The position numbers and the translations under genes were made by a program. The notes beneath the pieces are model-generated. The model saw nothing but the letters and a program-made list of their open reading frames with translations. It was not told the origin of the DNA and made no database searches. A DNA stretch of 64,000 nt from Sulfodiicoccus acidiphilus. GTDB lineage: Archaea; Thermoproteota; Thermoprotei_A; Sulfolobales; Sulfolobaceae. How positions within the stretch are numbered: the stretch's first letter is position 1; the number at the start of each line of letters is the position of its first letter. The stretch lies in assembly GCF_003967175.1 (NCBI RefSeq), contig NZ_AP018553.1, positions 1,661,982-1,725,981 on the forward strand, read 5' to 3'. Shown in pieces: positions 26,631 to 60,570 of this stretch.

Positions 26631-29600
26631 GAAGCATCCTAGAAGGAATTGAAAGGTACAGGGTACGGCAAATGTGGATGTAACCAACGCGGTAACGAAG
26701 CATCCTAGAAGGAATTGAAAGCTGAATTTTCCGGGTTTATTACAGTTACTGATTTTATTACGAAGCATCCTAGAAGGAATTGAAAGGCCTCCTCCTGCTG
26801 TTCCTCCTGTTGTACTTGCTACAGTGAAGCATCCTAGAAGGAATTGAAAGTGACGAGGAACGAAACCGCGTCGGTCCTACTTGAGAAATGAAGCATCCTA
26901 GAAGGAATTGAAAGTACCCTTGGGGGACCCCCTAGAAAATGTGATGGCAGTCTGAAGCATCCTAGAAGGAATTGAAAGTTTTACGTACCCGAGGTACGCT
27001 TCCCTCGGGTACGTCACGGAAGCATCCTAGAAGGAATTGAAAGAGCCAATTTATGACGTCGACAAGCTGTCCCTCCTCACCGGAAGCATCCTAGAAGGAA
27101 TTGAAAGACGTCAGCGCGAGGGGGCTGGAGTTCAGCCTCGTCTACTCGGAAGCATCCTAGAAGGAATTGAAAGCACTTCTCTCTCGGTTTCTTCTCTAGG
27201 GCTGGTGTGAAAGAAGCATCCTAGAAGGAATTGAAAGTTACAAAATAGACAAACGAGACTTTTCCTTTCCATCTCCTCGAAGCATCCTAGAAGGAATTGA
27301 AAGAGGAATCCTAGGGCAGATCGAGATATAGTAGTTAGCCTTGAAGCATCCTAGAAGGAATTGAAAGAGAATATAGGGCTCGTACCCGCATCCCCAAAGC
27401 CGAATGAAGCATCCTAGAAGGAATTGAAAGTCGATTTCATTAATGCCATGCCGTCCTATAACAGTGAAGCATCCTAGAAGGAATTGAAAGCTTATTCTCA
27501 CCTTCCTTTTCTCGCCTTCCACTTTTCTGAAGCATCCTAGAAGGAATTGAAAGGCGAAGATGATCGAGCAAAACACTCACCCCTTCATCGTCGCGGTGAA
27601 GCATCCTAGAAGGAATTGAAAGCCTTGTACTCTTCGATTGGGAGGAGGTACTCCTCCTGAAGCATCCTAGAAGGAATTGAAAGCCCATTTTCCTGGGCGA
27701 CAAGGGTGGGGTGAAGTACTTCGGAAGCATCCTAGAAGGAATTGAAAGAACCATCGTCGACGCGGGGTTTTGCGGACAACTCACGATGAAGCATCCTAGA
27801 AGGAATTGAAAGAACCCAACAACGAGTTTTCAATCGTTTTACTTAGTAACAGAAGCATCCTAGAAGGAATTGAAAGATCACTTCGTTTAATTCTCCCAGT
27901 TTCTTACAATATTGAAGCATCCTAGAAGGAATTGAAAGTTGAAGGCGAGGATGATTTCCTCGCCTTCGGCGAAGTACGAAGCATCCTAGAAGGAATTGAA
28001 AGATTGCCCCCGCGTCTCGCTCCACCACCCCAACATACGAGAAGCATCCTAGAAGGAATTGAAAGTGCCAGGGGGCCCCGGTGTCGGAACCGGGGCCCAC
28101 ATATGGAAGCATCCTAGAAGGAATTGAAAGCAAAAGGAGGGGAGGGGGAAATTTTTCGCATGATATTCACATCCGAAGCATCCTAGAAGGAATTGAAAGT
28201 ATTAAACTCCCCTTTCTTGTACCCCAAATACGTTTCTACGAAGCATCCTAGAAGGAATTGAAAGGCAGAGTATATTTCTATGTACTCTGCCAACGTCATG
28301 AAGAAGCATCCTAGAAGGAATTGAAAGCCCTAGAGGGGAAGGGGTGCGCCAGGATCACCTCCCCCGAAGCATCCTAGAAGGAATTGAAAGACAGACGCCC
28401 TCAGCCACACCCGCACCACCGTGCGGGTGGAAGCATCCTAGAAGGAATTGAAAGAGTCACACTTCCACCCTGAAGACGGTGAACCTGTACCCTACCTTCT
28501 GAAGCATCCTAGAAGGAATTGAAAGCGCATAAAAAACCCAAGCCAGTTCAGCGCCGCAGACGCGGGAAGCATCCTAGAAGGAATTGAAAGGCCTCCCCTT
28601 CCCGGGGAGGCAGAGGGACGAGCAATTGAAGCATCCTAGAAGGAATTGAAAGATTCTTTCGCGAATTGAAAGAACTTTTTAGGGGTGGAAGCATCCTAGA
28701 AGGAATTGAAAGCTCATTTCTTTTCAAAAAAAGATATCGAAACGCTAGAAAAGGAAGCATCCTAGAAGGAATTGAAAGCGAAAACCCAAGCTAGCTCGGT
28801 GTGGCAAATACCACACCGAACCGCAGAAGCATCCTAGAAGGAATTGAAAGCTCTGACGCGGGGGTCAGCCCCGCGTCTCGCTCCACCACGAAGCATCCTA
28901 GAAGGAATTGAAAGATGGGGACATAGTCCCCATTGGGCATCACCACATAGTGAAGCATCCTAGAAGGAATTGAAAGTTATCTTAAGTCCCTCTCCATCTC
29001 TCTGGACGTAAATATGAAGCATCCTAGAAGGAATTGAAAGGAACCAACCCGTCGAACCGGCGGTGAGTGGGGCACCCGCTGAAGCATCCTAGAAGGAATT
29101 GAAAGGGGGAGGAGTCGGAGGTGGGGGAGGTGGCTTTCTGCTGAAGCATCCTAGAAGGAATTGAAAGACTTTGGCGCGACTCGGATTGGCTATACCTCCA
29201 ACCATCGGAAGCATCCTAGAAGGAATTGAAAGTCCAAAAAGCGGGGGGTGGGGGGTGCTTCGCGTTGCGGGGGAAGCATCCTAGAAGGAATTGAAAGGTT
29301 CAGTTAGCGGGAGCACTATTACTCTCGCCAGCGAGAGGAAGCATCCTAGAAGGAATTGAAAGCTTCCGGCCCGCTCCCACGCCTCATTACCCCAGGCTTC
29401 CCAGAAGCATCCTAGAAGGAATTGAAAGCGTCTTTTTGGGCAGCCGGGGAGGGGTGAAGTACTTCGCGAAGCATCCTAGAAGGAATTGAAAGGGGTCGGG
29501 GGAGGAGACAGGGACGAGCTCCCAAACAGAGGAAGCATCCTAGAAGGAATTGAAAGGACAAGATCGTACGAAACCACCCCGCTTTTCACGGCCTCCGAAG

Positions 29601-32600
29601 CATCCTAGAAGGAATTGAAAGATAGACTCGTTCTTGGGCGTGAGACGGAGTATAGAAACGGAAGCATCCTAGAAGGAATTGAAAGTTTCAATCAGATTTG
29701 CCATTACATGAAGGTTTTAGGTGGCGAAGCATCCTAGAAGGAATTGAAAGAACCGTTGTGGCTTTACTTGGAATAATTGTTTTCGTCATCGAAGCATCCT
29801 AGAAGGAATTGAAAGTAGTATCAGCGAGCCAATCTAGATATGGCCCATTGATCCAGGAAGCATCCTAGAAGGAATTGAAAGACTTCATTTCAGTTTCGGG
29901 CCGACCCCGGCCCCTCGTGTTGGAAGCATCCTAGAAGGAATTGAAAGTTAACCGGCCTTTCAGGCCGGGTGACCCGCACAAAGTGAAGCATCCTAGAAGG
30001 AATTGAAAGACCTGGGAGGAGCGGGATGAACTGGGAGCTCGTCCCAGCGAAGCATCCTAGAAGGAATTGAAAGCCATTTCACGTGGGAAACCTGGGGGAA
30101 CGAGGCGTGGGAACGAGAAGCATCCTAGAAGGAATTGAAAGACGGGCAGAACGCATACGCTTATGCCGAAGTACCTCAACTCGGAAGCATCCTAGAAGGA
30201 ATTGAAAGAGCAAAGCTCCCTGCCGGCACCCTTCGTTCCGAGAAACAGGAAGCATCCTAGAAGGAATTGAAAGGCCTCCCCGGGAAGGGGAGGCAGAGGC
30301 TCTATTTTGAAGAAGCATCCTAGAAGGAATTGAAAGTTCCGTCTCCCCTCCCCTTCTCGATGAAGGGAAGCACCGCGAAGCATCCTAGAAGGAATTGAAA
30401 GGTCATCATAGACGAGATCCACAACATAAGCGACAGAAGTGGAAGCATCCTAGAAGGAATTGAAAGCCTAACCCCACCTAACCCCTTTTTTTTCTTCTTC
30501 CCTTTGAAGCATCCTAGAAGGAATTGAAAGTTGGAGTACTTGTCTTAGTTTGTCTAAACTCTCAACATCCCGGAAGCATCCTAGAAGGAATTGAAAGATT
30601 CTCTCTTCCAGCCGAGAGAGGATTTTCCCCAATAAGAAGCATCCTAGAAGGAATTGAAAGTATGGGGTGTAGTCTCCGGGCTTGATTTAGTGTCTAAGAA
30701 GCATCCTAGAAGGAATTGAAAGCTGTCCAAGGGGAGAGAAGGGGATAGGGGACGGAAGAAGGAAGCATCCTAGAAGGAATTGAAAGCGAAAAGAAGGAAG
30801 AAAAGGCTCGTACTCGCACCCCCGAAGCATCCTAGAAGGAATTGAAAGGACAGGAAGGGGAAGGACGGGAAGGAAAAAAGGGGTTAGGAAGCATCCTAGA
30901 AGGAATTGAAAGTTAACCTCGGCAGATTTTCCAAGACATCATCAACCGAAGCATCCTAGAAGGAATTGAAAGGACATAGGCGGCGGCAGCAGCTATGACG
31001 ACGGTTCCTACTGAAGCATCCTAGAAGGAATTGAAAGAAGACCCAACCTAATTCGGCGCCACAATGGCACCGAATGAAGCATCCTAGAAGGAATTGAAAG
31101 AGGATGCTTCAGGGGAGGCAGAGGGGGGGGGGAGAAGGGAAGGAAGCATCCTAGAAGGAATTGAAAGACTACTTGTGTTTCCACCACCGGTGCTTCCGCT
31201 CGTGTTGGAAGCATCCTAGAAGGAATTGAAAGATACCAACATGCTACAACAAAGTTTTTATATTACCTTCGGAAGCATCCTAGAAGGAATTGAAAGAACG
31301 TCGCACAGGTGCCTCCGTACAAAGGAACCATATCTAGAAGCATCCTAGAAGGAATTGAAAGCCATCGAGGTAGTGACGGTGAACGCCGACGGGAAGATGA
31401 GTCGCGAAGCATCCTAGAAGGAATTGAAAGTCCGACTCCAACGAGGAGCCGGACGAGGAGGACTCGGAGGAAGCATCCTAGAAGGAATTGAAAGCCGGAA
31501 TCGTTCTCTTGGGCATGTTGTCTCAACCATGAAGCATCCTAGAAGGAATTGAAAGAGGGGTACTCCCCTGGTTCCGAGAGGGCGTACCTGGTCCTGAAGC
31601 ATCCTAGAAGGAATTGAAAGACGAGGAGGGGAAAGAGGGGAGGGAGGGCAGAGGACGGCAGGAAGCATCCTAGAAGGAATTGAAAGCTTTCATAATTTCA
31701 TCCTTCGGTTTTCTAAGCTGTTCATGAAGCATCCTAGAAGGAATTGAAAGGTTTTAGAGCGGCCTCCAGGCCGCTCTCCAGCCTCTCTAAGAAGCATCCT
31801 AGAAGGAATTGAAAGTTTGATTTCCGGATTGTAGTTGTTAATCTTGTTCTTGAAGCATCCTAGAAGGAATTGAAAGATAACTTTGCGGGTCTTATTTTCT
31901 CACGTCTTAACTTCTGAAGCATCCTAGAAGGAATTGAAAGTTCCGGTTCCCTTGGAGTAGGACTGGGCATATTGGAACAGGGGAAGCATCCTAGAAGGAA
32001 TTGAAAGGAAGGGCCCGCTCCCACCCCTCGTTTCCCCAGGCTTCCCAGAAGCATCCTAGAAGGAATTGAAAGTATCATGCTCTTTATCAACAACTTTCTT
32101 GCAACTACAGTTGAAGCATCCTAGAAGGAATTGAAAGCGTCGGAGTCCTCGTCCGAGGAGGTGGTGGGGGAGGAAGCATCCTAGAAGGAATTGAAAGGTG
32201 TTTTCTGTTTTTCTCGCGTGGTTCTCAAGAAGGTCTGAAGCATCCTAGAAGGAATTGAAAGTTACACCGCGAACGGAACGGCACAGTTCAACGCGTCCGC
32301 TGAAGCATCCTAGAAGGAATTGAAAGTGTAGACCGTGTTCATGAGTATCTTTCGACAGTAAGAAGCATCCTAGAAGGAATTGAAAGCTGAACAGGGGTAC
32401 CCCTGGTTCAGGGAGAAACTTGTAACGAAGCATCCTAGAAGGAATTGAAAGATTCTCAGTCTTCCAGCCCGGATCAGTCTAGCAGGTTCCGTGAAGCATC
32501 CTAGAAGGAATTGAAAGCGGCAAGTACGGCGCCTTTTGGGTCAGCGGTCGGGCCCGGAAGCATCCTAGAAGGAATTGAAAGCGATCAACCCTCCCTGCGA

Positions 32601-35600
32601 CACGGTCTCCCCGGAAGGTAGAAGCATCCTAGAAGGAATTGAAAGCGACCTCGGCCAATATACCGCTCCTCCGGAGTCCCCCGAAGCATCCTAGAAGGAA
32701 TTGAAAGGGTTTGTGCCACTTTCCCAGTTGTCGATAGTCACCCTCGAAGAAGCATCCTAGAAGGAATTGAAAGTCTGAGCATCCATCAACCCACTGACAA
32801 CACTGTGCCCCATGAAGCATCCTAGAAGGAATTGAAAGGCTCCGTCGCACTTCAAAGGGGGGAGAGAAGCATGGGAGGCGAAGCATCCTAGAAGGAATTG
32901 AAAGAGGGGAGAGATGAGGGGAAGGGGAGAAGGGAGAAGGGGTTAGGAAGCATCCTAGAAGGAATTGAAAGCTACCGTTATGCAATACGGGACGTACGGG
33001 TCTCGTCCGTGCGAAGCATCCTAGAAGGAATTGAAAGCAGGACCAGTGCGAGGAAACTTAACGTAATGGGGTCAAGTGGAAGCATCCTAGAAGGAATTGA
33101 AAGGTTCATGTCTAACGTGAAATCCATTCGGAAAAACTATATGAAGCATCCTAGAAGGAATTGAAAGAAACAGATTTTCATAGACTTCGGCGGCAACGAA
33201 CCGACGAAGCATCCTAGAAGGAATTGAAAGTTTATAGGCGGAATTGAGCCTTTGTTCCCAATTGCGGGGAAGCATCCTAGAAGGAATTGAAAGCGACTGG
33301 GAAATCAAATTCTTGCCATGTGTTGGCCGGAATTGAAGCATCCTAGAAGGAATTGAAAGATGTAAACTTTGTCAAAATCATAAAACCCCATATTTTTCAG
33401 AAGCATCCTAGAAGGAATTGAAAGTACTCCCCGTCGTAAACAACGGGGAGGTTGGGAGTGGGAAGCATCCTAGAAGGAATTGAAAGCATCCCAGCTCGGT
33501 GCCGCACCTGCGGCAGAAGCATCCTAGAAGGAATTGAAAGTAACTCCCTCTCACTCTCATAGTATTCCGTGATCCGGCCCGAAGCATCCTAGAAGGAATT
33601 GAAAGATGGGAAAGAGGAATAAATTGGTAGGCATCTCCACTCGAAGCATCCTAGAAGGAATTGAAAGAAACATATGGCGACCCTATCCTACCCTCGCCAC
33701 CCCGAAGCATCCTAGAAGGAATTGAAAGTCGTCCTCCGGGTCCTCGTCCGAGGAGGTGGAGGAGGAGGAAGCATCCTAGAAGGAATTGAAAGATTCCTCC
33801 CCCGCTTTTCCTATAATCCTGAAACATGCATGAAGCATCCTAGAAGGAATTGAAAGGTGATCCGGCCCCCGTCGTTGTGGAATACGTACTTGAGCCGGAA
33901 GCATCCTAGAAGGAATTGAAAGTACGGCGCGGCGAGGGTGACCACCCCCACCGCATACCTTCTCTTGAAGCATCCTAGAAGGAATTGAAAGTTAAGTACG
34001 TGTGCCCCACATACACACCCGCCATCATCCTTGAAGCATCCTAGAAGGAATTGAAAGTGTTTTCAACGTCCTGCGCCGTGACTTCGCGCCACGTGTCGAA
34101 GCATCCTAGAAGGAATTGAAAGTTGTAAGTCGTATTGCGTCACCGAGTTCATCAGCACGTTGAAGCATCCTAGAAGGAATTGAAAGTTCTCGAGGACCGA
34201 GCCCGAATTTACGGGCACTTTTTCTTGAAGCATCCTAGAAGGAATTGAAAGCGTCGGAGGGGACGAGCTCCCAAACACTCGTCCCGTCCCGAAGCATCCT
34301 AGAAGGAATTGAAAGTGGGGGGAAGGGGATAAATTGATAATTCGTCCCCCCCGCGTGAAGCATCCTAGAAGGAATTGAAAGACCCCGGTGTAGGTGGGAG
34401 TGGTGGGAGTGACGGTGGAAGCATCCTAGAAGGAATTGAAAGTAGTCGACGTCCTCGATTCGAACATATGGACCTTCGCCGGGAAGCATCCTAGAAGGAA
34501 TTGAAAGCGAATTCGGCAAGCGTCATCACGTAGTCGTCGAGCCACGGAAGCATCCTAGAAGGAATTGAAAGCTGAGCTCGCGCATGGGAAGACGGATGTT
34601 GCCGTATGTCGAAGCATCCTAGAAGGAATTGAAAGTCTACCCCGGCAAATACGGCCTTTACTCCCTGTACGGGTATGAAGCATCCTAGAAGGAATTGAAA
34701 GCTTGCACGACAGGACGAGGACCTGTCGGTCCCCGTCCTTCAGAAGCATCCTAGAAGGAATTGAAAGAACAATATCAGAGACAGTATACCAAAGTCAATA
34801 ATTTCTTTGAAGCATCCTAGAAGGAATTGAAAGCCGAGGTCGTACTGAGTCTCAGGAACGCAGGGGGCGCCGTGGAAGCATCCTAGAAGGAATTGAAAGA
34901 TCACAACGTCGCAACCCTCCCTCACTTCCCATGCCTTTGGAAGCATCCTAGAAGGAATTGAAAGGCACGATCCTGCCTTTGACGAAGTGATCCTTAGTTA
35001 TGAAGCATCCTAGAAGGAATTGAAAGTCCTTTTGCGACCCACCCTCCACATCCTCAGCGACCGCGAAGCATCCTAGAAGGAATTGAAAGCCTAACCCCAC
35101 CCACCTAACCCTTTTTTTCCTTCTTCCCTTGAAGCATCCTAGAAGGAATTGAAAGGCTCTTCGACTTGGTCGGGGTCGATGTACCACTTCACCAATGAAG
35201 CATCCTAGAAGGAATTGAAAGTAGTTCATGCTGCAAAACCCCCAGATTTCTTCGGAAACCTTGAAGCATCCTAGAAGGAATTGAAAGACCTCCCCTGGGG
35301 AGGGAGGCAAAGGCGTTTTTTCGATCTCGAAGCATCCTAGAAGGAATTGAAAGGCTGCTTTCCACCCTGTTGGGGGTTCACGTGCCCACCAACAGAAGCA
35401 TCCTAGAAGGAATTGAAAGAGGTAGGGTCCACTGACCCATATCGTATCCTCAGTCTCGAAGCATCCTAGAAGGAATTGAAAGTAGTTTATACAGGGTCTC
35501 TATATCCCCACTACTAAAAAATTGGAAGCATCCTAGAAGGAATTGAAAGTTATACCCCAGGTAAGCGTACCTGGGGTACGTCACATACTGAAGCATCCTA

Positions 35601-38060
35601 GAAGGAATTGAAAGGCGACCTCGAGGGCGTCCACGTGCCCGCGGAGGCGGCGAGAAGCATCCTAGAAGGAATTGAAAGATCATGGTCGTATTTCTCTTGC
35701 ATACTTTTACATTCTTGGAAGCATCCTAGAAGGAATTGAAAGTTAAGGGGTGCTTTCCGAGCCTCCCTTTCGAGAGGCGCTTGAAGCATCCTAGAAGGAA
35801 TTGAAAGTCCAGCAGCCCGTTAAGTTCCGAGCCCGAAACGGGCGCTGAAGCATCCTAGAAGGAATTGAAAGTATCGCTGAAACGAAGCCATCGCTTATCA
35901 AGCCCTTGACTTCGGAAGCATCCTAGAAGGAATTGAAAGCAAACAGAGGAGCCGTCCCACCAATGGGAGCGGGCTCCCCGAAGCATCCTAGAAGGAATTG
36001 AAAGTCGCGGGGAGGCTAATTGCACTCTTCTCACGGTGGTATATAAGAAGCATCCTAGAAGGAATTGAAAGACCAATTCATCGCCCTCTCCCATTCCTTC
36101 ACCCCGTATTGGAAGCATCCTAGAAGGAATTGAAAGACGATTGGAGCGAGGTGCCGGAAGACCTTCGCTACGAAGCATCCTAGAAGGAATTGAAAGAACT
36201 AACTGAGGCTCTTGCTCGAGGAGCCTCAGGATCGAAGCATCCTAGAAGGAATTGAAAGCCGGGAAGGGGAGACAAGGGTTCTGTATGGAATTCCACTTTG
36301 AAGCATCCTAGAAGGAATTGAAAGCTTTAAGGGCTTGTTCCAACCCTTCCTTCAAACGTTGAAGCATCCTAGAAGGAATTGAAAGCCCTGAGGTCTTTGA
36401 TGTACGTTTGCGCTTTCTCTCCGTGAAGCATCCTAGAAGGAATTGAAAGTCTGCGGGTGCCTTTTCCTCTTGTTCTGACATTTTTCCTTGAAGCATCCTA
36501 GAAGGAATTGAAAGCCACAAGAAGGGGTTGGCCTCTGGAATCTTATCGATCCGGTGAAGCATCCTAGAAGGAATTGAAAGATTCTGGAAAAAAATACGGA
36601 GGAAACTACCCTCCCTGTCAGGAAGCATCCTAGAAGGAATTGAAAGACCAGGAACGACAACCGAGTTTCCCTTAACGAGTTGGCACGAAGCATCCTAGAA
36701 GGAATTGAAAGACAGTCTCCAGGTCCCTCTCATTAAAAAACTCGGGAAACCGAAGCATCCTAGAAGGAATTGAAAGATTTATACCGTATCTCCTAACAAG
36801 ATACTTTTCAGCAAGGGAAGCATCCTAGAAGGAATTGAAAGCGGTTACAGGTACGGGCCTTGTGGCCTCCGTCGGAGCCTGGAAGCATCCTAGAAGGAAT
36901 TGAAAGTGTGGTTGTAGTCCTAGTTCATGCTGCAAAAATCCCCAGATGAAGCATCCTAGAAGGAATTGAAAGTTCTCCCGCTGCCGTCCCCCCTGCCTCC
37001 TCCCTTTTTTTGAAGCATCCTAGAAGGAATTGAAAGTCAAAGCCACCCCTTCCACCTGCCGGTAGTACTCCTCGAAGAAGCATCCTAGAAGGAATTGAAA
37101 GAATGAGGGTGGTGGGAGCGGGCCCGCAGGGGAACCCGCGAAGCATCCTAGAAGGAATTGAAAGGTTGCTCCCTCTCAATATGGAGTCGTGGGTGTGAAG
37201 TTGGAAGCATCCTAGAAGGAATTGAAAGCTTATCTTGGTTCCACGTCGTGGCCCATACGACTCATAGGAAGCATCCTAGAAGGAATTGAAAGCACAGTTC
37301 ACATCCCTGTTTCCAGCAGGGATTTTTACCATGAAGCATCCTAGAAGGAATTGAAAGGAAACACCGAGAGATTGCCTTTGGAGGTGGCACCGAGAAGCAT
37401 CCTAGAAGGAATTGAAAGAATTCGTGAGTGAGGAAACTCCAGATTTCCTCACTTATCTTGGAAGCATCCTAGAAGGAATTGAAAGATGAGGGGAGAACCA
37501 TGAACGTTCAACAATTAGTAGAAGCATCCTAGAAGGAATTGAAAGGGGGCGAAGCGTAAACCGACCTGTAAGGCGACATCAACAGAAGCATCCTAGAAGG
37601 AATTGAAAGGTTTCCATTCCTTCTGCACAATATGGGGTGAAGGAAGAAGCATCCTAGAAGGAATTGAAAGACCAACACCCCGGCCGTCTTAGGGTCGGCT
37701 TCTGGGGCGGTGAAGCATCCTAGAAGGAATTGAAAGCCATATTGGAGTATTAATACGTGGGCACTTCGCTTGGTCGAAGCATCCTAGAAGGAATTGAAAG
37801 CTTCGTTTCCCCAGGCTTCCCACCGAAGGTGGGCACAGCCGAAGCATCCTAGAAGGAATTGAAAGGTTCGGAAGGAAGATGCCTAAATTGCCGCTCGAAT
37901 CGAGTGAAGCATCCTAGAAGGAATTGAAAGAGGATAATGATAATTTCGTGTGGTTGCAATCCCAATTCGTGAAGCATCCTAGAAGGAATTGAAAGTACTC
38001 GTAACGTTGTCGGGAGGTTCGTCGTACCGTTCTCCGAAGCATCCTAGAAGGAATTGAAAG

Positions 38061-38252
38061 TTATTGATTCGAACTATGTCCCCATTAGGAAGCTTTATGG
38101 AAGCATCCTAGAAGGAATTGAAAGAGTACCTCTGGTGTTTCAGTACAAACGCGACGTGGAGGGGAAGCATCCTAGAAGGAATTGAAAGCTGCCACTTCGT
38201 CTTGGGTGATTTTCTTCGAGGGATCGGGAAGCATCCTAGAAGGAATTGAAAG
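38061..38252. repeat. Three-spacer block, first copy
   Basis: These 192 bp (three spacer-repeat units) recur at 39597-39788 with no difference that I can see. The copies lie 1,536 bp apart near the old end of array 2, with other spacers between them, so this is a dispersed rather than tandem duplication. Confidence 0.95.
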
Positions 38253-39596
38253 ATTCTTCCTCCTGCCGCATATGTGATTTTAAAGCATTCGAAGCATCCT
38301 AGAAGGAATTGAAAGACTCGGTCAAAAACAAATATCCCGATTTAACTTACGGGAAGCATCCTAGAAGGAATTGAAAGAGGCAGGAAGCATATACCTATCG
38401 AACCCAACAACAAGTTTTGAAGCATCCTAGAAGGAATTGAAAGACATTCTTCCGACGTATACGCCTACGATGACGGCCACAGCCGAAGCATCCTAGAAGG
38501 AATTGAAAGGATCTTTCTGTTCTTTCTGTTCCTTTAGTGTTCGAAGTGAAGCATCCTAGAAGGAATTGAAAGAAAGGCTATTAAACACCCGGGTCGTGTC
38601 GTTAGAGCGATGAGAAGCATCCTAGAAGGAATTGAAAGATATATTAGGCTCCATCATTCTCCCCTTCACTCCGAGTGGAAGCATCCTAGAAGGAATTGAA
38701 AGGGTTGAAGTAGTAAACTCCGCAACGAACCCTATTCCTGTTGAAGCATCCTAGAAGGAATTGAAAGAACCCGTACTCCAGTCCTACGACAGCGCCAACC
38801 ACCATCTCCGAAGCATCCTAGAAGGAATTGAAAGACATGACTCTTATCAAGAATACTGCTGAGTTTTTCTAGCGTGAAGCATCCTAGAAGGAATTGAAAG
38901 CAACTAACGTACCATAGTTTCTCTTCCTTCGACCACCTTATGAAGCATCCTAGAAGGAATTGAAAGGATCTCGCGGATGCCGGAGACGAAGAGCGGTGAC
39001 TCCATGAAGCATCCTAGAAGGAATTGAAAGTAGGCCACATACCATAGTTTCTCTTCATTGCTCCATCGCAGAAGCATCCTAGAAGGAATTGAAAGGGGTT
39101 AACAATTACGAAAAGCCAGTACTAGACATGAAGCATCCTAGAAGGAATTGAAAGGTAGGCGAGGGGTTGCACATATTGTGCCCCCTCACCGAAGCATCCT
39201 AGAAGGAATTGAAAGGGTGGGGGGTCGTCGACCTCCCATTCGATGTCATTGTCTGAAGCATCCTAGAAGGAATTGAAAGTACCAAATTCTGTCTGTCATT
39301 CTAACTTCGTATTTTGTGGAAGCATCCTAGAAGGAATTGAAAGCCAGGAGGTCTGGTCACACTCTGCCCGCCCAGACTGTGAAGCATCCTAGAAGGAATT
39401 GAAAGTTGGTCAAGTTGGTGCGGGCTATGGGGTACTCTCAAGAGATGAAGCATCCTAGAAGGAATTGAAAGTGTTATGAAAGTGACGCTGACGTTCTTCG
39501 CCTTGATTTTGAAGCATCCTAGAAGGAATTGAAAGGCGCGCGTCCTTGTACCCGTACAGGGAGTAAAGGCCGAAGCATCCTAGAAGGAATTGAAAG

Positions 39597-39788
39597 TTAT
39601 TGATTCGAACTATGTCCCCATTAGGAAGCTTTATGGAAGCATCCTAGAAGGAATTGAAAGAGTACCTCTGGTGTTTCAGTACAAACGCGACGTGGAGGGG
39701 AAGCATCCTAGAAGGAATTGAAAGCTGCCACTTCGTCTTGGGTGATTTTCTTCGAGGGATCGGGAAGCATCCTAGAAGGAATTGAAAG
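39597..39788. repeat. Three-spacer block, second copy
   Basis: Second copy of the block at 38061-38252. The neighbouring units on both sides differ, so the copying or recombination endpoints lie within repeats. Confidence 0.95.
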
Positions 39789-39941
39789 TAAAGGGGGAGG
39801 TTGTGTATACCACTCCTAACATATTTTAGAAGCATCCTAGAAGGAATTGAAAGATGTGACCTGGGGCGGTATTTTTTCGTACAGGAAAGGCGAAGCGTCC
39901 TAAAAGGAATTGAAAGAACTTCGTAACGACGATGTCGAGTT

Positions 39942-40172
39942 TCACTTTTCCCTTATCTCTCCACATAAGTAGCCTGCGTCGACAATCCTCCTCCTTATTT
40001 CCCTCTCCACTTTCCCCAGGTCCAGGCCCTCATCGACCTTCGCGTAGGCTAGCCCTCCCTTGAGGTCCACCTTCACTTCCCAAACTCCCTTCACCCCGCT
40101 CAGAGCCTTGGTCACGTTGATCCTACACCCCTCACATTCCATACCTTTGACCTCAATTACTAACGACTTCAT
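39942..40172 (-). CDS. Small copper chaperone (HMA domain)
   Basis: The 76-residue protein is a single heavy-metal-associated domain: an opening strand K-S-L-V-I-E-V-K-G, then M-E-C-E-G-C, the Cys-x2-Cys copper site near residues 13-16, then V-K-G-V-W-E-V-K-V-D. Such proteins carry Cu(I) to a CopA-type ATPase in the cytoplasm. It lies 15 bp after the HxlR-type regulator on the same strand and is divergent from the CopA-like ATPase, so it probably belongs to the same copper response. The gene lies only 25 bp beyond the last array 2 repeat. Confidence 0.88.
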   Translation of the reverse strand: MKSLVIEVKGMECEGCRINVTKALSGVKGVWEVKVDLKGGLAYAKVDEGLDLGKVEREIRRRIVDAGYLCGEIREK

Positions 40173-40187
40173 GTAGTTTGCTATAAC

Positions 40188-40585
40188 TCACGACTTATTA
40201 AGACCTAAACTTACTCGCCCTTTACTTACTTGGGCCGAGTTAAGTATGGGGCAGTCGCTGTGTCCCGTGTACCTAGACGCCCACTTGAATAACGGGACGA
40301 CGGACTTCCTCAGTTTCCTCCCCTCACTAGTTAGGGAGTAACTAACCCTGGGGGCGAGTTACCCACTACGACCCTCTTCACTAGGCCCATGCTCTCCGTT
40401 TGTTTCAAGACGTCGGAAAGCGCCTTTGGCCTGATCCCATCGATCGCTTTCAACAACTCATTGAAACCGACTCCCCTCCCGTTACCTATTACGTTGAGGG
40501 TCAACAGGAACCACTTCCTGGAGATTACGTTCACCGTGCTGACTAGAGGACAGGACTGCTTAGCGACTTTACTGCCCTTAACCAT
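40188..40585 (-). pseudogene. HxlR-type winged-helix regulator, frameshifted
   Basis: The first frame gives the HxlR opening (S-C-P-L-V-S-T-V-N-V-I-S-R-K-W, then F-N-E-L-L and I-R-P-K-A-L-S-D-V-L). It breaks at a run of five C on the coding strand (+ strand 40351-40356). One more base restores R-V-S-Y-S-L-T-S-E-G-R-K-L, the typical C-terminal wing and dimer helix, to a stop at 40188. The total is one base short of 133 codons. HxlR regulators are DNA-binding dimers, and this one carries a Cys near its start and another in S-D-C-P near its end that could sense metal. A homopolymer position makes sequencing error a fair alternative to true inactivation. Confidence 0.82.
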
Positions 40586-40589
40586 GTTA

Positions 40590-40625
40590 CTTGCTATATA
40601 CTTTGTAGTTTATATCCTTATTAAT
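40590..40625. promoter_or_regulatory. Divergent promoter region of the copper locus
   Basis: The AT-rich stretch between the regulator and the ATPase contains CTATATACTTT (near 40596) and GTTTATATCC (near 40610). On the minus strand the second box lies about 25-33 bp before the regulator ATG at 40585. The same stretch lies before the plus-strand ATPase. Shared control of both directions is likely. Confidence 0.5.
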
Positions 40626-40690
40626 TAGTTACGTTCTCCTCGGGGCGAATCGGAAACGGGAGCATCGAGAAGGGAAGAGACGTCGGAGGA

Positions 40691-42792
40691 TGAGGGTATT
40701 AGGATAACGCGGCTTTACGTCGGGGGAATGGCGTGCGCCTTCTGCGCCTCCACTATAGAGAGGGGGTTGGCGAAGGTCAACGGGGTCAAATCGGCGAAGG
40801 TTTCCCTGGAAACCGGGGAGGTTTTCGTGAGGCACAGCCCTTCGGTACCCCCTGAGGTCTTAAGGAGGGAGTTGGAGGGGCTCGGGTATTACGTTTTCGA
40901 GGGGAAAAGGGATTCCACTCACTTGCTGAGGGACTCCAGGAGGAGGTCCCTGTGGAGCTGGGTCCTCACCTCGATCTCGCTGCTGCTGACTCTGCCCATG
41001 ATGGTGAAGGCCTACGCGCTGCCGGCTTACTCCTTTTACATCAACGTGGCGGTGGTGTCGATTTCCCTGTTCTACATCGCATTTCCCATTCACAGGGGCG
41101 CGCTGAACGCCCTGCGGAGGGGAATCCTGAACGAGCACGTACTCTACGGGGTATCCGGGATCTCGGCGTACGTCCTAGGTCTCTTGGGTCTCCTGTACCC
41201 TGGCCTCAGGGAGTTCCTGTCGATCTCTGCCCTGCTCACCTCCCTCCACTTGACGGCGGGGTGGATGGGGGCTTACCTGAGGTATAGGGTGGAGCAGTCC
41301 CTGTCGAAGGTCGTCGAGTTGAGGCCTCCCGTCGCTCACTTAGCTAGCGGGGAGGACGTGCCGGTCACCGGACTAAGGGAAGGGGATGTGGTAATGGTTA
41401 AGCCTGGCGAGAAGGTCCCCCTGGACGGAGTGGTGATCGGCGGTGAGTCCGAGGTGTCCGAGGCCGTCATAACGGGGGAATCCGAGCCCGTTTTGAAGAG
41501 GACGGGGGACGCCGTGATCGGAGGTTCGACCAACGGCAGTGGACACTTAGTGGTGAGAGTCACGACGGACTACTCCGGCAGTTTCCTGTCTAGGATTTTA
41601 GGGATTGTGGACGAAGCCAAGCGAAGCAAATCACCTGTTTCGACGTTCTTCGAGAGGATCGTGGACAGGGTGTGGGTTCCACTAGTTCTCTCAGTTTCCC
41701 TCCTGACCCTCCTGGGCTGGGGCGCGTACGGGGCGTTTACGGGGGGCGACCCGTTCGCCTACCTATTCCGAGGAGTGGTGAGCGCACTCCTGGTATCGGT
41801 TATAGGGTACCCGTGCGCTATAGGGTTCTCCTCCCCGGCAATGGGGCTCTCGCTGTTCGAGAGGTACCTGAGAACAGGGGTGATCCTGAGGGACGTCGGG
41901 GCGCTGGAGAGGCTCGGCGAAGTGAGGACGGTGGTCTTGGATAAGACCGGAACCATCACCTACGGGCAGCCCGTGGTGAGGGGTTTTCACGGTGAAGACA
42001 GGGCATTAGTTTACGCGTACTCCTTGGAGAGGTTCTCCGCCCATCGCTAGGGCCATAACGCGGTACGCCGAGGGGAAGGGGGTTGAACCCCTCGAGGTGG
42101 CCAACTTCAGGGAACTCCAGGGGAAGGGCGTCGTGGGGGAGGTGGGAGGCCGTGAGGTTTTCGTGGGCAGGCCTGGGGCAACTGTCTGCGAGGACTCTCC
42201 CACCCTCGACGGTAACGTCGCTGTTTGCGTTGATGGGGAACTGGTGGGTCGATTCGACGTAGAGGACGACTTGAGGAGGGACGCCGCGGAGTTCGTGGCG
42301 AGGTTAAGGGCCATGGGGATGCGAGTCGTAGTGCTGAGCGGAGATAGGGGAGACAGGGTCAGGGCGTTGGCGGAGAGGCTGGGTATCCGGGAGTACTACG
42401 CCGAGACGTCCCCTGAGCGTAAGGTGGAAGTGATAAAGGAGCTGAAGGGGAGGGGCGGCGTCGCGATGCTCGGGGACGGCGTGAACGACGCAGCGGCCTT
42501 AGCCCTAGCCGACGTATCCGTTGCCATGGGAAACGCCGTCGATCTCTCGAAGAACGCGGCCCACATCGTGCTACTGAACAACGACCTTAAGGGCCTCCTG
42601 TCGATACTCGAAAGGAGGGGCACGTTGAGCAAGGCCGTACCGTCGAACGTGGCTTTAGCGCTCCTGTACAACGCGGTGGGGATCCCCTTGGCCGTGTTGG
42701 GGACGTTGAGTGGGATGCTCGCGATGGTCGTCATGGTGTTGAGTTTGGCCTCGGTCTTCGCTAACGCGAGGCTATCGGCATTGTACGCCTAG
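40691..42792 (+). pseudogene. copA: CopA-type P1B copper-exporting ATPase, frameshifted
   Basis: The parts of a heavy-metal P-type ATPase appear in order. There is an N-terminal HMA domain with M-A-C-A-F-C, membrane helices, the actuator T-G-E-S, a Y-P-C membrane motif where CopA normally has C-P-C, the phosphorylation site D-K-T-G-T, and G-D-G-V-N-D. The frame breaks near 42045: S-A-H-R-stop should continue as H-P-I-A-R-A in another frame. The sequence fits loss of one copy of a CCCAT tandem repeat (5 bp). The start is also odd: the ATG at 40691 must shift one base to reach the HMA frame, and the in-frame ATG at 40728 would cut off the first HMA strand. The gene is divergent from the regulator and chaperone. 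Confidence 0.85.
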
Positions 42793-42959
42793 GGTGAGCT
42801 GGGGGATAGGAGGACAGGGTTTCGACCTAGGGGGAGTTAGGGACAACCCTCGGAGGTGTGTCCGATAAGGTCCCTCCGCGGCGTAGGGAAGCGAACTGTC
42901 CCCCTAGGCCTACTACAAGGGGTAGGAAAATGTACCTAGTGGGGGAGTAAACGAAGTTC

Positions 42960-43345
42960 AAGGGACCTCCCTCTCCTACGAGGTGTGGTAGCTGAACCTA
43001 GGGAAGTCACCCCGAGAGGCCTGACGCGTCTTCCGTGTGCTCTCCAGACACGACGTCCAAGTGCGTCTGGGACTTCCCTTCGAGTAGACTGGAGCCTCGC
43101 CTTGCGGATCCACCTCAGTAGTCCTCGTAGTGGCCGAAAATCTCCCGCTTCCCACAGGAAAACACCCCGTAGGGCTCTGACCAGCCCGACCTTGAAAACC
43201 CCCCGGTGCTCCAGCTTGAGCAGGGAGTGGGCCGAGGGAGGCCGAACCACGCCTCTCACTGTCCATTAGGCTGAAGACGAACTCCCCCATCGCTCCGACT
43301 ATTTGGGAGTACCCCCTGAAGTGGTGGTAGTAATCCAACACCGCT
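42960..43345 (-). pseudogene. Decayed minus-strand open frame of unknown family
   Basis: Read on the minus strand from about 43345, one frame gives L-D-Y-Y-H-H-F-R-G-Y-S-Q-I-V-G-A-M-G-E-F, which looks protein-like. It continues best in another frame as R-P-P-S-A-H-S-L-L-K-L-E-H-R-G, and then loses coding character. I do not recognise the family. It ends next to the decayed CRISPR repeats and is best described as a gene remnant. Confidence 0.35.
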
Positions 43346-43350
43346 ACCCC

Positions 43351-43624
43351 GAATCATCCTAAGGGGAATTGAAATAGAGAGGGACGGGAGAAGGCCCCGA
43401 TGACGAGAAGCATACTAGAACGAATTGAAAGAGAGGTTCAACGTTGTGGCTCCTTCGTGTGAGTTGAGGGCGAAGCACACTAGAAGGAATTGAAAGGCGC
43501 CTCCTTCAGCACCCCTGCCGAGGACGGTGTCTTCCTGAGGCGTCCCAGAAGGAATTGAAAGCGTAGGACCTTCACTGCGTCGCTAGAAACCCCTGCGAAG
43601 GAGCATCTCAAAAGGAATTGAAAG
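43351..43624 (+). CRISPR. Decayed CRISPR remnant of array 2 type (five repeats)
   Basis: Five degenerate copies of the 25-bp array 2 repeat stand at 43351-43375, 43407-43431, 43472-43496, 43537-43561 and 43600-43624, with 31-, 40-, 40- and 38-bp gaps. Each carries several changes, but four keep the AATTGAAAG end exactly and the first ends AATTGAAAT. Orientation matches array 2. This looks like the old leader-distal end of array 2, cut off by the copper locus, or a separate dead array. Confidence 0.85.
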
Positions 43625-44871
43625 AACGTCGCTACGGCGTCACCGATCTTCACGTCAGGCACGTGTGGGCCGGGCGATTTTCCGGCCGTCGCTACGAGGT
43701 AGAAGAAGTTCCGGGAGTTCGAACGAGGGTTGACAACCTTAATTGATATGGACAGCTGAGCCAAAGGGTCGCAAAACCTACATTGCGCCAACCCCCCCAC
43801 AACGAGGTGATGGAACGGGGGTTCGTCAAGCCCGGCCTGAAAATGGACGTAGGGAGTTCGAAAGGGTGGTGTGGGAGGGTAAACTTCGGCCGACAAAGAC
43901 TTTACTTTTAAAACCCCGTTTTCGTCACGGGACAATACCTGGTGAACGGAAAGGTTCGACTTCTACTTTCCGAAGGCTGGCCGAAAACCAATGTAGAAGG
44001 CTACGCGAGGATGTGGATGAACTTCCTTATGTTCGGGGAACGAACCTGTAGAACGAATGTGAAGAATAGACGGTCGCCTACTTATCTCAATTCGAAGACC
44101 GGAACACAGAGATAAACACAAGCGAAGCGATCGAGGATCTCTTAGTGGACGTTACAGAGATAAACTCAGGGAAATAGACGTGCCACCTTGAGATAATGAA
44201 CTACAACGTTTTTCCGAGGAACATGTCAAAGAAATCTCAACCGCGACGTAGACGACTTTTACAGAGTAGCTCTAGAGAACGGGTACGAGTTAGCTCCGAG
44301 GATCGACGGGCTAACTTGAAGGTGGACGACTTGGTCGAGCGAAGCCGTCCAACGCAAGTCGAGTCGGAAAAAGGAGGAAATTGCGGATTCCAGTTTCGCC
44401 TGAACTCTGCGACACTTGAAGAAAGACGAAGGTGAATGCCTCTTTGGAAAGGGGGTAGACCGTTTCGCCTCAACTCCAAAACCTAAGTGTAGGTGAACTA
44501 GGATACGACCACGTCGAGTGCCACGACCTATCCAGGCGCTCACGTGAGAGTGCCCGGAACATAAAAAATTTAATTTATATTTCAAAAAATATTCATATTT
44601 TATCATTTTTCTATCTATAATTCGAATCATTATCTCGGGGAACGGAGTCTCGCGATGGACGGTTTACAGGTTATCCAGACATAACCTTATACCTAGAATA
44701 ATTCTTGTCTCTATATCAATATTTTCGTCGAAATGTTTGCGTTCCGTACACTGTCACGTGAGACTAACCTCTTGAAGCGAGGAGTCTACATCTACGCCTT
44801 CTCCGAGTTCTCCCCGCACGGAAACGTGAGAAGCTACCGTTTACCTGCACTCCCGAGACAGAGAATCTACG
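43625..44871. other. Gene graveyard with no intact gene
   Basis: About 1.2 kb has only broken frames. A short patch near 44240-44310 reads protein-like when frames are joined (D-D-F-Y-R-V-A-L-E-N-G-Y-E-L-A-P-R), followed by L-K-V-D-D-L-V-E-R in another frame. That suggests a decayed gene that I cannot name. A strongly AT-rich stretch lies at 44560-44630. Confidence 0.45.
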
Positions 44872-45730
44872 GTGTTTAACTTCGATTTGACGGACAAAGA
44901 GAGGGAGGAGATACCGAATATACCACCAATCCAAGAGAAGGACCCGAGGGATCTCGGGAGCGGTGGGAAGTCCGAGTCCCTGCCTACACGCTGCCGGAGC
45001 TGGTGGGCGAGGGAATGGTGGAGATCACCTTCGGGTCTAACGAGAGGACTCTGTTGGAACTGGGGAACGTCAACTACGCCGAGGCCCGGGTTGGATTTTC
45101 AACGGAGAAGCGAGTGAACCCCCGAACTCTCCCGGCCGAAGGACGTCGACTCCAACCAGTTCTTCGACGTAATATTGGGTCTCCGCGACGTTGAGGACGT
45201 CTTCAAGCTAGGTCTCAGGAGAAAACCCCCACCACACTCCTAGTGGGCCCCGGGGTTAGACTCTCTCTCCTCTGGCGCGGTTTTACCGATGGGGCAGAGT
45301 CGAGGGAAGTCGGGTTGGCGGAAGCGACGCAGTCCGTGGAACCGGGCTACCTCGTGATCCACGAGATAGACAAACCGCCCAGGACCGGTCCGTACTGCTG
45401 GCCTTGATGGAACAGGGGATATTGAGGACAAACACGACCTACACGTTCACGAGGAACTTAACGTTTACGCAGCCGACGACATCGAGAAGTTGAAGAGGGA
45501 ACCGGTTTCCAGGTTCACGGCGCTGAAAATACCCGAGTACGACGGGGAGCGGTCGACGAAGGTGGAGAGGAGGGAAGGCAAGTCGAAGGAGTACTCGGAG
45601 AGAGTTTCGAAACTCTCAGTCCTCTCGGGTCATCGGGGCGTTAGAGACGCCGTCGAAATGCCTAGGATAACGAACACCTCGGAGGAAGCGGAAAAGGCTA
45701 TAACGACGTGGAAGAAGTACCGGAACTGCT
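44872..45730 (+). pseudogene. Decayed AAA+ ATPase
   Basis: Fragments in different frames join into one AAA+ ATPase. There is an N-terminal part from GTG 44872, then D-V-I-L-G-L-R-D-V-E-D-V near 45168. A degenerate Walker A follows (L-L-V-G-P-G where G-P-P-G-x-G-K is expected), then Walker B-like Y-L-V-I-H-E-I-D-K near 45345, L-L-A-L-M-E-Q-G-I-L near 45400, a sensor-like Y-A-A-D-D-I-E-K-L near 45470, S-R-F-T-A-L-K-I-P-E-Y, and a lid region R-D-A-V-E-M-P-R-I-T-N-T-S-E-E-A. At least four frameshifts are needed, and the Walker A lysine is gone, so the gene is dead. The order of motifs resembles archaeal RuvB-like or MCM-like AAA+ proteins, but the exact family is uncertain. Confidence 0.78.
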
Positions 45731-46835
45731 GTAGCCCTTCCTTAGAGGCTTCGTGCTTCGGGCCGATGTTACCGAAAGTGGGGGTTGAGGGGGAGGAAAG
45801 CCTCACCTTTCACGGGAGTGTAGCCCCCTTATATTCAAATACTCGTTAGTGTTGGACTGACTGTAGCCCCCTTTTCGACGCCGAGCGACGGTCACCCTCC
45901 ACCCCCTGGACCGGAGGTCGGTGGACCTCCCAAGTCGTTCCTCTGTCCGTGAACCACTTCCTCGTTTCGCTCGGCTCACGTTGGGAGATTACGCTCCAGA
46001 GAAAGGAGATCGGTGAGTCGAGGGTCCGGTCGGAGCGAGAGGTGTAAGCGAGGTCCTTAGTGCTCATCTAAGGCCTCCTTTCCGTCCGAAGGGCTTCACG
46101 ATGGAAATTCGGGTCCTAGGTGGCCGTGCTATATCAGGGTTTGGACGGCCCACGAAAGACTTGACGTGATCGCAACACTTAATTAGCCGGAGCAATGAGC
46201 TTGAGTAGCCTCTATGAATTGGAAGCGAAACTACCTGTTCCCCTTATATGACATCTGTGTCACCGTCTACTGACACGGCCGTCAATGAGCGTTTTTTACT
46301 TTCTATTGTAATACTATTCCATTTCATACAGATAGAGTAATAATTTACGAAGCAACTCTAAGTCATCGAACTTCCCTGGCCCTAGTCTCCTCCACCATAA
46401 CGTAGACCCTTAGGTTATACCCCCAGGAAACTTAAACGTACTTCCTCGGCGAGCCACGAAGAACACACAATTCGCTGCGTAGGCGGTAAGGGTGTTAAAT
46501 GAGGTGGTAGGGCGTCTTCTCTCTCGTTCCTTAAGGGGCGGTTGAATGGATCCTCACTTCCTCGGTGGCCCCGAAGGAGGCGGCTGTCCCGTCGACGGTC
46601 CTCCTCCAGATCTAAAGTCTAGGGTAAGCGTGGAGTCGACACCTCCACCGATTTCACGTTCGCGAATTTACTTGAAATAAATTAAATAATTCAGGACGTT
46701 CTCCTGGGTGTTGCCCACGGCGGGAGAACGGACGGGATCAATTTCGTGATTAAACCGTTGTTCTTTAGTGTCCTACACTTGGTTCGAGCTAACTTGAGTA
46801 TAAACGAGGGATGGAGTCTGCAGGTCTATGACAGA
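45731..46835. other. Gene-free stretch before the type III operon
   Basis: I see no supported gene in about 1.1 kb. AT-rich patches near 46300-46350 and 46680-46700 alternate with GC-rich stretches holding only short frames. It may contain further decayed genes. Confidence 0.45.
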
Positions 46836-46892
46836 AAAATTTATAAACTAACTAGTTGAGCTATTTATGGGTCCCTGAAGGGACCCAGGTGA
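46836..46892 (+). promoter_or_regulatory. Promoter and 5' hairpin of the type III-D operon
   Basis: A TATA-like AAAATTTATAAAC lies near 46837-46849. About 25 bp later, where the transcript should begin, stands a perfect inverted repeat: TGGGTCCC, CTGAA-type loop, GGGACCCA (46867-46886). GGTGA follows, 8 bp before the ATG at 46900, and could be a ribosome binding site. The hairpin could act as an operator or shape the 5' end of the message. Confidence 0.6.
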
Positions 46893-46899
46893 AATACAA

Positions 46900-47571
46900 A
46901 TGTCCTATAAAGGAATACGTCCAATTGAGGTAAAGTTAGGCTCTTTTTTTGTTGAAGTGGAGAGTGAGATCCAACTCATAGATGGCACAGTCGAACTAAA
47001 GTCTTTCTCTCCTATTCGTCGTGATTCGAGTCCTGTTAACCAAGTTTCTGTAACGAGTCTGGTCGAGTACCTTACCTCTGAACGACCTCCTACAGACAAC
47101 GATGTTACTTCAACGAGGGGACGGTATCAATATGTCACGTGGTCCGGAGAAGACTGGTTGCTTGAGAGACTTAACCTACGTAGACCCCAGGGACACTTGG
47201 AGTTGGAACTCGAGGGTTTAAAGGTGCGTGGTAGACCGGACTTCATCGTATCTAGCGGAAGATTGGAAGTAGGGGAGATAAAGACGAAGAACGTCAAAAA
47301 GGGATCTTCCGACCTCCACGAGATTATAAAACGGGGGTTGCTCCAGGTCCTCCTATACAAGTACATCGCGGAGAAGAAGGGGGAAACGTGTGAGGCCAGG
47401 CTCCTCGTGTTGACCTACGAGCGTCAGAACGATAGGGGGGAAGCCAAGCAGCTTTACACGGCCGTAGTCAAGGAACCTGTGGTTCCGAAGCTCGAACCCA
47501 TTGTACTTCAGGCCATTCACGACGTGAAGCAGTTGAAGGAAATGAACGAGGGGAGGTCTTCGCTTTGCTGA
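46900..47571 (+). CDS. PD-(D/E)xK nuclease at the head of the III-D operon
   Basis: The 223-residue protein has the restriction-endonuclease-like core: G-R-P-D-F-I-V near residues 110-116 and E-V-G-E-I-K-T-K near 122-129, giving the Asp and Glu-x-Lys metal-binding set. A conserved Gln-containing helix follows (R-G-L-L-Q-V-L-L-Y-K-Y). This layout resembles Cas4 and RecB nucleases, but there is no four-cysteine iron-sulfur cluster. It is the first gene after the operon promoter, and the next gene starts inside its end, so it is translated with cas6. A role in type III defence or prespacer handling is inferred from position. Other III-D operons do not always carry such a gene. Confidence 0.75.
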   Translation: MSYKGIRPIEVKLGSFFVEVESEIQLIDGTVELKSFSPIRRDSSPVNQVSVTSLVEYLTSERPPTDNDVTSTRGRYQYVTWSGEDWLLERLNLRRPQGHLELELEGLKVRGRPDFIVSSGRLEVGEIKTKNVKKGSSDLHEIIKRGLLQVLLYKYIAEKKGETCEARLLVLTYERQNDRGEAKQLYTAVVKEPVVPKLEPIVLQAIHDVKQLKEMNEGRSSLC

Positions 47572-48311
47572 GAGCCTCCATAACCCTCAGACCGGAAAAC
47601 AGGGTTGTCCTGCCGCCTATGACGTCGAAGTTGGGGAAGGTCATAACCAAGGGGGACTCCTCGTTCTTCGTATCTCCAGTCAGAGTTGACGGAAGGTACC
47701 TTTTCAGGCTCTCCAAGGATCCGCTTCCCGTCGAGGTGAGTCCGGGGCCTTGCGTTGTGGACATTTCAGGCTCTCCCGAAGGGTTAATTAAGCTCCTCGC
47801 CGAGTTGAAGGACTTCCACGCGTTCAACACGAAGTGGAGGATCGAGGACGTGAAGGTGGAGGACGTCAGGGTAGAGTGCTCCAAGGGGTTCGAGCTCTCT
47901 TCTCTCTCCCCCGTCCTTCCCTTCGACCCCTACGTCAAGGTCAAGCTGAAGCGGTTCACCAACTCCGTCGACGTCGTGCTGGCCGCTCCCCTCATGGACG
48001 TCACCTCCCTGAGCAGGGGAGACGAGCTCAAGGCCGAACTGGAAGAGCTTAGAAGGTTCATCATCGAGGACCCATCGTTACTTTACACAGTCAAAGTGAT
48101 CTACGCGGGAAAGGAGGTAGTCGGAATGCTGGGGAAGCTCAGGTACAGGATCCTACGCGACGTGCCGAGGCTAACGGAGGTACTGTCTGCTGCAGCCGTG
48201 AGGGGAGTGGGCTCGTCGAGGAGGAACGGGTTCGGGAGAGTCGAGGTGAGGTGTTACCAGGAATCGGGGAAGTCGAGGGAAGATGAAGGGTTATTAAGGA
48301 AAGAGAGGTGA
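47565..48311 (+). CDS. cas6: Cas6 crRNA-processing endoribonuclease
   Basis: The 248-residue protein starts with a RAMP strand followed by L-P-P-M-T-S-K-L-G-K and ends with the glycine-rich Cas6 signature G-V-G-S-S-R-R-N-G-F-G-R-V-E-V. Both are typical of Cas6, which cuts precursor CRISPR RNA within repeats and leaves the 8-nt handle. It is the only cas6 in the window, so it may process both arrays, although their repeats are unrelated in sequence. Its TTG start overlaps the nuclease gene by 7 bp. A catalytic His cannot be assigned with confidence by eye. Confidence 0.85.
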   Translation: MLRASITLRPENRVVLPPMTSKLGKVITKGDSSFFVSPVRVDGRYLFRLSKDPLPVEVSPGPCVVDISGSPEGLIKLLAELKDFHAFNTKWRIEDVKVEDVRVECSKGFELSSLSPVLPFDPYVKVKLKRFTNSVDVVLAAPLMDVTSLSRGDELKAELEELRRFIIEDPSLLYTVKVIYAGKEVVGMLGKLRYRILRDVPRLTEVLSAAAVRGVGSSRRNGFGRVEVRCYQESGKSREDEGLLRKER

Positions 48312-48318
48312 GTAATTC

Positions 48319-48720
48319 GTGTCTTCTATAGACGAGAAGTGGCTTCTGGACAGGGGAGCCAGGATAGCCAACCTGGCCAACCAGGGGAGGGTCGAGAGGA
48401 CCCAGATAAACGGTCTGCTCACCTTCCTTCAGAACACCAGGAGCGTGGAGCAACTGGAGCTCTACGTGCTCAGACAGGCAGGGAGAGATGAACTGAACCA
48501 GGAGATGGCGAAGGAGTTGCTTAGGGCGATCGAAGAGATCAAGGGAAAGGGAGGGGACACCGTCCAAACCGTCCTCAGCCTACTGGGGTACACGAAGTGG
48601 AGCTTCGAGGCCATCGACGGACTCAGGATCCAGGGGCAGGTCAACGACCTCAAGTCGCTGGTGAGCGCCGTCCTAGGCCAGCCGAGGACGGGAGGAACAC
48701 AGAAGCAGGGGATGCACTGA
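48319..48720 (+). CDS. cas11: Type III small subunit (Cas11, Csm2-like)
   Basis: The 133-residue protein is helical throughout (E-K-W-L-L-D-R-G-A-R-I-A-N-L, A-K-E-L-L-R-A-I-E-E-I, D-T-V-Q-T-V-L-S-L-L-G-Y), with no beta-rich RAMP motif. Size, helix content and place between cas6 and the cas7 genes match the type III small subunit, which lines the inner filament and contacts the target RNA. It starts with GTG 8 bp after cas6, and cas7 follows one base after its stop. The assignment rests on these features rather than on a sharp sequence signature. Confidence 0.72.
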   Translation: MSSIDEKWLLDRGARIANLANQGRVERTQINGLLTFLQNTRSVEQLELYVLRQAGRDELNQEMAKELLRAIEEIKGKGGDTVQTVLSLLGYTKWSFEAIDGLRIQGQVNDLKSLVSAVLGQPRTGGTQKQGMH

Positions 48721-48721
48721 A

Positions 48722-50292: not shown

Positions 50293-50344
50293 ACATACCC
50301 TAGACAGGACTCCCAGGAACTCCGGGAGTTGGTACAGGTTCTCG

Positions 50345-51273: not shown

Positions 51274-51289
51274 CTACCCGAGCGGGGAG

Positions 51290-54516: not shown

Positions 54517-54518
54517 GG

Positions 54519-60348: not shown

Positions 60349-60570
60349 GCTTTGAAAAACGTCGACGGACTTTTAAAGTATACTCTAGACGGGTCAAGTT
60401 CTTGGGTTGATAAAGCCGAAGTGCCCTTATTCCCCATCACGAACTTGAGGACGAGGTTGTTTGCGGCCTCGATCACTTCGGGGGACGAGTGTGGACGTGT
60501 TAGAAGCAAGGGGAGACACACGAATGTGAGACTTCTACTAGATGTGTGAGAAAAGTCGTTTTCAGGTGAA
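60349..60570. other. Gap upstream of mntA
   Basis: No supported gene in about 220 bp. On the minus strand, AAAGTCCGTCGACG follows a TTTAAAGT stretch near 60373 that could be part of the mntA promoter. Confidence 0.35.

Follow-up and report, generated by a model that had tools for sequence, protein, structure and literature searches.

Decayed CRISPR repeats beyond a metal-transport module next to array 2 of Sulfodiicoccus acidiphilus

Two CRISPR arrays and a metal-transport module

Sulfodiicoccus acidiphilus is a hot-spring archaeon. The genome of strain HS-1 (AP018553) is a single contig of 2,353,189 bp, of which bases 1661982-1725981 (64,000 nt) were analysed and are referred to here as the window. 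The window contains, in this order, array 1, cas3 and cas1, array 2, a metal-transport module, five decayed (fossil) repeats and, from 46900 onward, a type III cassette with RAMP proteins, an HD-domain Cas10 and Csx1 (Table 1). The assembly is PacBio-only yet deep (1.54 Gb of subreads), and its published annotation gives just three CRISPR regions, at genome positions 1664810-1679609, 1679646-1680862 and 1688612-1701897 (PMC6647314). The fossil repeats (genome 1705332-1705605) are absent from that listing; they were reported by an initial annotation of the window, and our scan confirmed them. Array 1 (2829-18881) has 240 repeats. At 17628-17731, one of its repeats is absent or unrecognisable, with a 132-nt spacing ahead of 17731, near the point where the published annotation divides this array into two regions.

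Array 2, with its leader at the left, consists of 207 repeats of 25 nt (GAAGCATCCTAGAAGGAATTGAAAG) and 206 spacers, nearly all of 35-44 nt. The repeats are perfect in 206/207 cases, the sole exception being the last, whose mild degeneracy had been correctly noted. An exact 219-bp duplication of three spacers (38034-38252 and 39570-39788, copies 1536 bp apart) is a product of recent recombination within the array, near its trailer end; thus, array 2 recombines.

Table 1. Features from array 2 to the end of the fossil repeats (window positions)
Feature	Position	Strand	Remarks
CRISPR array 2	26631..39916	+	repeat scan, spacer lengths; published region 1688612-1701897 (PMC6647314)
Terminal repeat of array 2	39892..39916	+	2/25 changes (A6G, G12A)
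Gap after terminal repeat (25 nt to hma stop codon + 4 nt)	39917..39945	.	19/29 identical to 43625-43653
HMA chaperone, small, 76 aa, CxxC	39942..40172	-	PF00403 E=1.3e-10; gene order as in G018
HxlR-type regulator, frameshift near 40331-40358	40188..40585	-	PF01638 E=2.3e-6; two frames vs intact G018 homologue
P1B-type heavy-metal ATPase, copA-like, YPC for CPC	40728..42792	+	frameshift near 42010-42050
Dispersed element, ~100 bp	42900..43002	.	93% identical to single other genomic copy, 2037607-2037711
Fossil repeat 1	43351..43375	+	5 changes
Fossil repeat 2	43407..43431	+	2 changes
Fossil repeat 3	43472..43496	+	2 changes
Fossil repeat 4	43537..43561	+	3 changes
Fossil repeat 5	43600..43624	+	4 changes; G12A common to 39892
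Sequence past last fossil repeat	43625..43653	.	similar to 39917-39945

The metal-transport genes (39942-42792) lie between array 2 and the fossil repeats. The stop codon of hma is located 25 nt past the last array-2 repeat, hxlR comes next on the same strand, and the P1B-ATPase gene is divergent. The ATPase displays PF00122 (1.5e-37), PF00403 (2.1e-11, an N-terminal HMA domain with CxxC) and, in its second fragment, a HAD domain. Copper pumps (CopA, P1B-1) have a CPC metal-binding motif in the transmembrane channel. Of the CopA features, the P1B domains and the HMA CxxC are present here, whereas CPC and a single intact frame are not: the motif reads VIGYPCAIGF, and YPC is also found in the homologues of relatives G018, G015 and G002. 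The locus had been called a copper locus; its metal-transport genes are indeed in the place described, but because of YPC the word 'copper' is provisional, and the module is a heavy-metal pump module, probably for copper. The ATPase homologues are intact in G018 (64%), G015 (57%) and G002 (51%), with frames of 700-730 aa. By contrast, frameshifts interrupt both hxlR and the ATPase gene of S. acidiphilus, which makes the module a relic in its own right; in the ATPase gene, the lesion resembles the loss of a short tandem unit, not of one homopolymer base. Approximately 560 bp of non-coding DNA, including the dispersed element, separate the ATPase gene from the first fossil repeat, and CCTAGG flanks both sides of each of the two copies of this element. 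The frameshifts and the non-coding stretch are details beyond the initial annotation. A foreign base composition of the module was looked for and not seen: the G+C and GC3 values of the ATPase gene (0.60/0.78, compared with 0.62/0.86 for cas10) match those of neighbouring native genes and thus give no sign that it arrived recently. A search of genome contigs with the ATPase returned distant relatives only (23-38%) and no close archaeal record.

The ~3.2 kb ahead of the type III cassette (43654-46879) contain no recognisable intact gene; short reading frames suggest decayed genes, and no family was matched. Fragments at 44880-45849 resemble an ATPase by eye; searches of Pfam, NCBIfam and PDB returned nothing, and we make no claim for them. 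At 45767-45851 there is a dispersed sequence of ~60-75 bp, which occurs at least seven times in the S. acidiphilus genome (82-91% identity) and has counterparts in other genera (G003, G015 and G012).

The fossil repeats and their pattern of changes

As the initial annotation had stated, 43351-43624 contains five decayed repeats that share type and strand with array 2. They diverge by 8-20% each, follow one another at 56-65 nt and enclose spacers of 31, 40, 40 and 38 nt, the first of which was presumably shortened by deletion. Among the 16,900 positions of the background region 47000-63900, there is no 25-mer with up to 5 mismatches to the array-2 repeat, so five in-register repeats are not a product of chance. 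The segment thus displays direct repeats at near-constant spacing and unique spacers, but no leader: the best local score of the sequence upstream of 43351 against the array-2 leader region is 22, and shuffled sequences reach 29. Nothing before 43351 or after 43624 exceeds background as a further decayed repeat. Comparison of the fossil spacers with the 206 array-2 spacers gave no match above shuffled controls, and comparison with 50,697 phage records gave no significant match, a result to be expected when the spacers have decayed and archaeal viruses are few. The proposed comparison of mutation load by position gave 0/5150 changed sites in the array-2 interior, 2/25 in the terminal repeat and 16/125 in the fossil repeats, a ratio of fossil to interior of at least ~130. 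Either a much greater age of the fossil repeats or homogenisation of the array interior accounts for this gap. By its changes, the terminal repeat belongs to the old, decayed class, and 43351-43624 is most likely the old tail of array 2.

The 3' part of a CRISPR repeat becomes the crRNA handle. Only 1/16 of the fossil changes falls in repeat positions 16-25 (P=0.003 if random; P=0.013 with identical states counted once and the terminal repeat included), and the 8-nt handle alone gives P = 0.02-0.05 for a deficit, the regions having been picked after the data were seen. Since the 3' part is avoided, the changes did not accumulate at random. In functional repeats of Sulfolobaceae, the 3' ends (ATTGAAAG) agree and the 5' halves differ, and the fossil pattern resembles that divergence. 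This suggests that much of the fossil divergence arose while the repeats were in use, which argues against simple decay after a cut-off. It is conceivable, although quite improbable, that the fossil is not simply dead and was, or still is, a mini-array without a leader next to the type III cas genes, transcribed, processed and diverging under selection on the handle. Mutations common to the terminal repeat and the fossil repeats, restricted to the variable 5' part, are not above chance (P=0.2 for the terminal repeat, 0.34 overall); shared mutations were accordingly dropped as proof of common descent.

Relatives, junctions and the origin of the fossil repeats

The module is patchy in the family. 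It is found in G018, with the same three genes intact and in the same arrangement, in G015, with an insertion sequence among the three genes, and partly in G002; in G018 and G015, it is surrounded by transposase genes. It is absent from G010 and G006, the other species of the same genera that were searched, and from G001, the only congener assembly, which is 87% complete and also without cas10. In G024 and G029, cas10 and the arrays are placed differently. The junction comparison in relatives that the initial annotation had called for thus yielded genomes without the module, but none with an empty site in an uninterrupted array. Moreover, relatives whose arrays are uninterrupted likewise show degeneracy in the final one or two repeats (the G006 array closes with a repeat carrying 7 changes, and the array of G029 ends in degenerate repeats), so degeneracy alone is no proof of a cut-off. 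Nevertheless, the five detached repeats exceed the degeneracy seen at the array ends of relatives. As a separate observation, the repeats of the G006 array (C1:2634606-2639558, L011) change blockwise along its length, from GAA through GAT to GAC at the start; these blocks, ending in the repeat with 7 mismatches, are a record of variants inherited by copying.

From the repeat identity, orientation, spacing and decay, together with the frameshifts and the patchy module, we infer former continuity, insertion as the cause of the separation and the following order of events. Segment 43351-43624 would be what is left of the trailer end of an earlier form of array 2. The genes for hma, hxlR and the P1B ATPase, with the small dispersed element, would have come between this old end and the present array 2; an insertion, either within the old array or next to it, is the most likely route. 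Array 2 may then have lost or replaced its old interior as units with identical repeats were added from the leader side, retaining one old terminal repeat (39892), and the stranded tail, module and surroundings would have been decaying since, with hxlR and the ATPase gene becoming frameshifted. Such an old trailer end, with the module inserted into or beside it, is the best single model, unproven, and we give it an about even chance. It is favoured by the same repeat, strand and spacing, by the old-class terminal repeat in array 2, by the patchiness of the module and its location among transposase genes in G018 and G015, by the recombination in array 2 and by a precedent, the plasmid-derived fragment in Saccharolobus solfataricus locus F (PMC4390879). 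The missing leader fits as well, since a cut-off tail is expected to have none. By contrast, the model is weakened by the want of an empty-site relative, of a target-site duplication around the module and of a recognised transposase gene at its junctions, by the native G+C/GC3 of the ATPase gene and by shared mutations that are not above chance. The insertion into an older array put forward by the initial annotation is therefore retained on the first set of observations and qualified by the second. Its further clause, that the tail decayed for lack of repair by recombination, is superfluous, since a greater age accounts for the decay just as well, and uninterrupted trailers of relatives are degenerate too (PMC8047081).

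A further point that weakens the insertion model is the likeness of the two array ends, which a simple split does not predict unless a repeat-spacer unit was duplicated. The alignment of 39892-39945 with 43600-43653 is gapless, with 19/29 identity beyond the repeat, a modest effect noticed after the fact; only 8/21,115 array spacer pairs (~4 in 10,000), some of them true duplicates, are as similar. Both ends also carry CTAAAAGG or the equivalent (G12A). It may thus be that the array end (the terminal repeat with ~30 nt, perhaps several units) was duplicated and that the module and other DNA accumulated between the copies, the fossil being the outer copy and 39892 the sole remnant of the inner one. 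Array 2 does undergo duplications, but the likeness fades after ~30-36 nt, no longer than one spacer, and duplication of a repeat-spacer unit within a single old array would look identical. The end likeness, although suggestive, thus does not separate the two models, and we regard a duplicated end as a tentative alternative. We consider it rather unlikely that the fossil arose independently, as a second array with the array-2 type of repeat next to the type III cas genes, was at no time continuous with array 2 and has lost its leader to decay or overwriting. Several arrays of one repeat type are common in Sulfolobales, G029 and G006 having at least two each, and the fossil faces the type III cassette; however, the sequence upstream of 43351 lacks leader similarity, and the old-class repeat at the end of array 2 points at the fossil. 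Finally, it is very improbable that the fossil is just a long array-2 trailer of the usual kind, with no particular history, and that rearrangement made the module its neighbour: trailers in G006 and G029 are degenerate without insertion and terminal-repeat polymorphism is general (PMC8047081), but in these two genomes degeneracy is limited to the final one or two repeats, with no gene-bearing gap of 3.4 kb ahead of them.

Solitary repeats and comparison with known systems

The array-2 repeat also occurs singly, with 0-1 mismatch in 25, at four sites far from the arrays: genome positions 2167363-2167387, 683647-683671, 1336805-1336829 and 1957445-1957469 (L090-L093). The array-1 repeat has no copies outside array 1 in the genome. 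L090 and L092 lie exactly at the truncation point of a dispersed element that occurs at least 40 times and probably represents the 5' end of an IS605/tnpB-type element, and L091 follows an apparent truncated tnpB start. One perfect copy occurs in a broken gene of congener G001 (L009:2503-2527); the idea that its removal restores the reading frame was dropped, since the gene is also broken ahead of the repeat. The four copies and the one in G001 look like single repeats at deletion junctions, and they are possibly of more interest than the fossil repeats. In addition, an isolated repeat with 2 mismatches lies between the two arrays of G029, another Sulfolobaceae genome (C1:1981774-1981798), and G006 has one at 2388830.

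The fossil array is real but modest genome archaeology. A dated old tail beside a uniform array would make it possible, in an archaeon whose arrays are very long, to measure array turnover relative to neutral decay, and the surplus of changes in the 5' half suggests where constraint acts on the repeat; beyond this, the finding is the local history of one variable genomic region. In locus F of S. solfataricus, an 899-bp pNOB8-like plasmid-derived fragment lies between two repeats (PMC4390879). In both cases, repeats of one type in a member of the Sulfolobales are separated by non-array DNA, but in locus F this DNA matches a conjugative plasmid, whereas here it is a chromosomal-type metal module, and the repeats on its two sides would once have been continuous. 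Degenerate trailer-end repeats and the collapse and refilling of arrays have been reviewed (PMC8047081), and array 2 likewise has identical repeats throughout save at the leader-distal end. However, five degenerate repeats stand apart here, 3.4 kb past the current last repeat, and whereas terminal-repeat changes usually lie in the 3' end, those of the S. acidiphilus fossil spare the 3' half. The module shares with other P1B ATPase/HMA chaperone modules of Sulfolobaceae the divergent hma-hxlR/ATPase order, identical to that of G018, and differs in its HxlR-type regulator, in YPC instead of CPC and in the frameshifts. Overall, the finding falls within known kinds, namely, old trailer repeats and foreign DNA beside or within an array.
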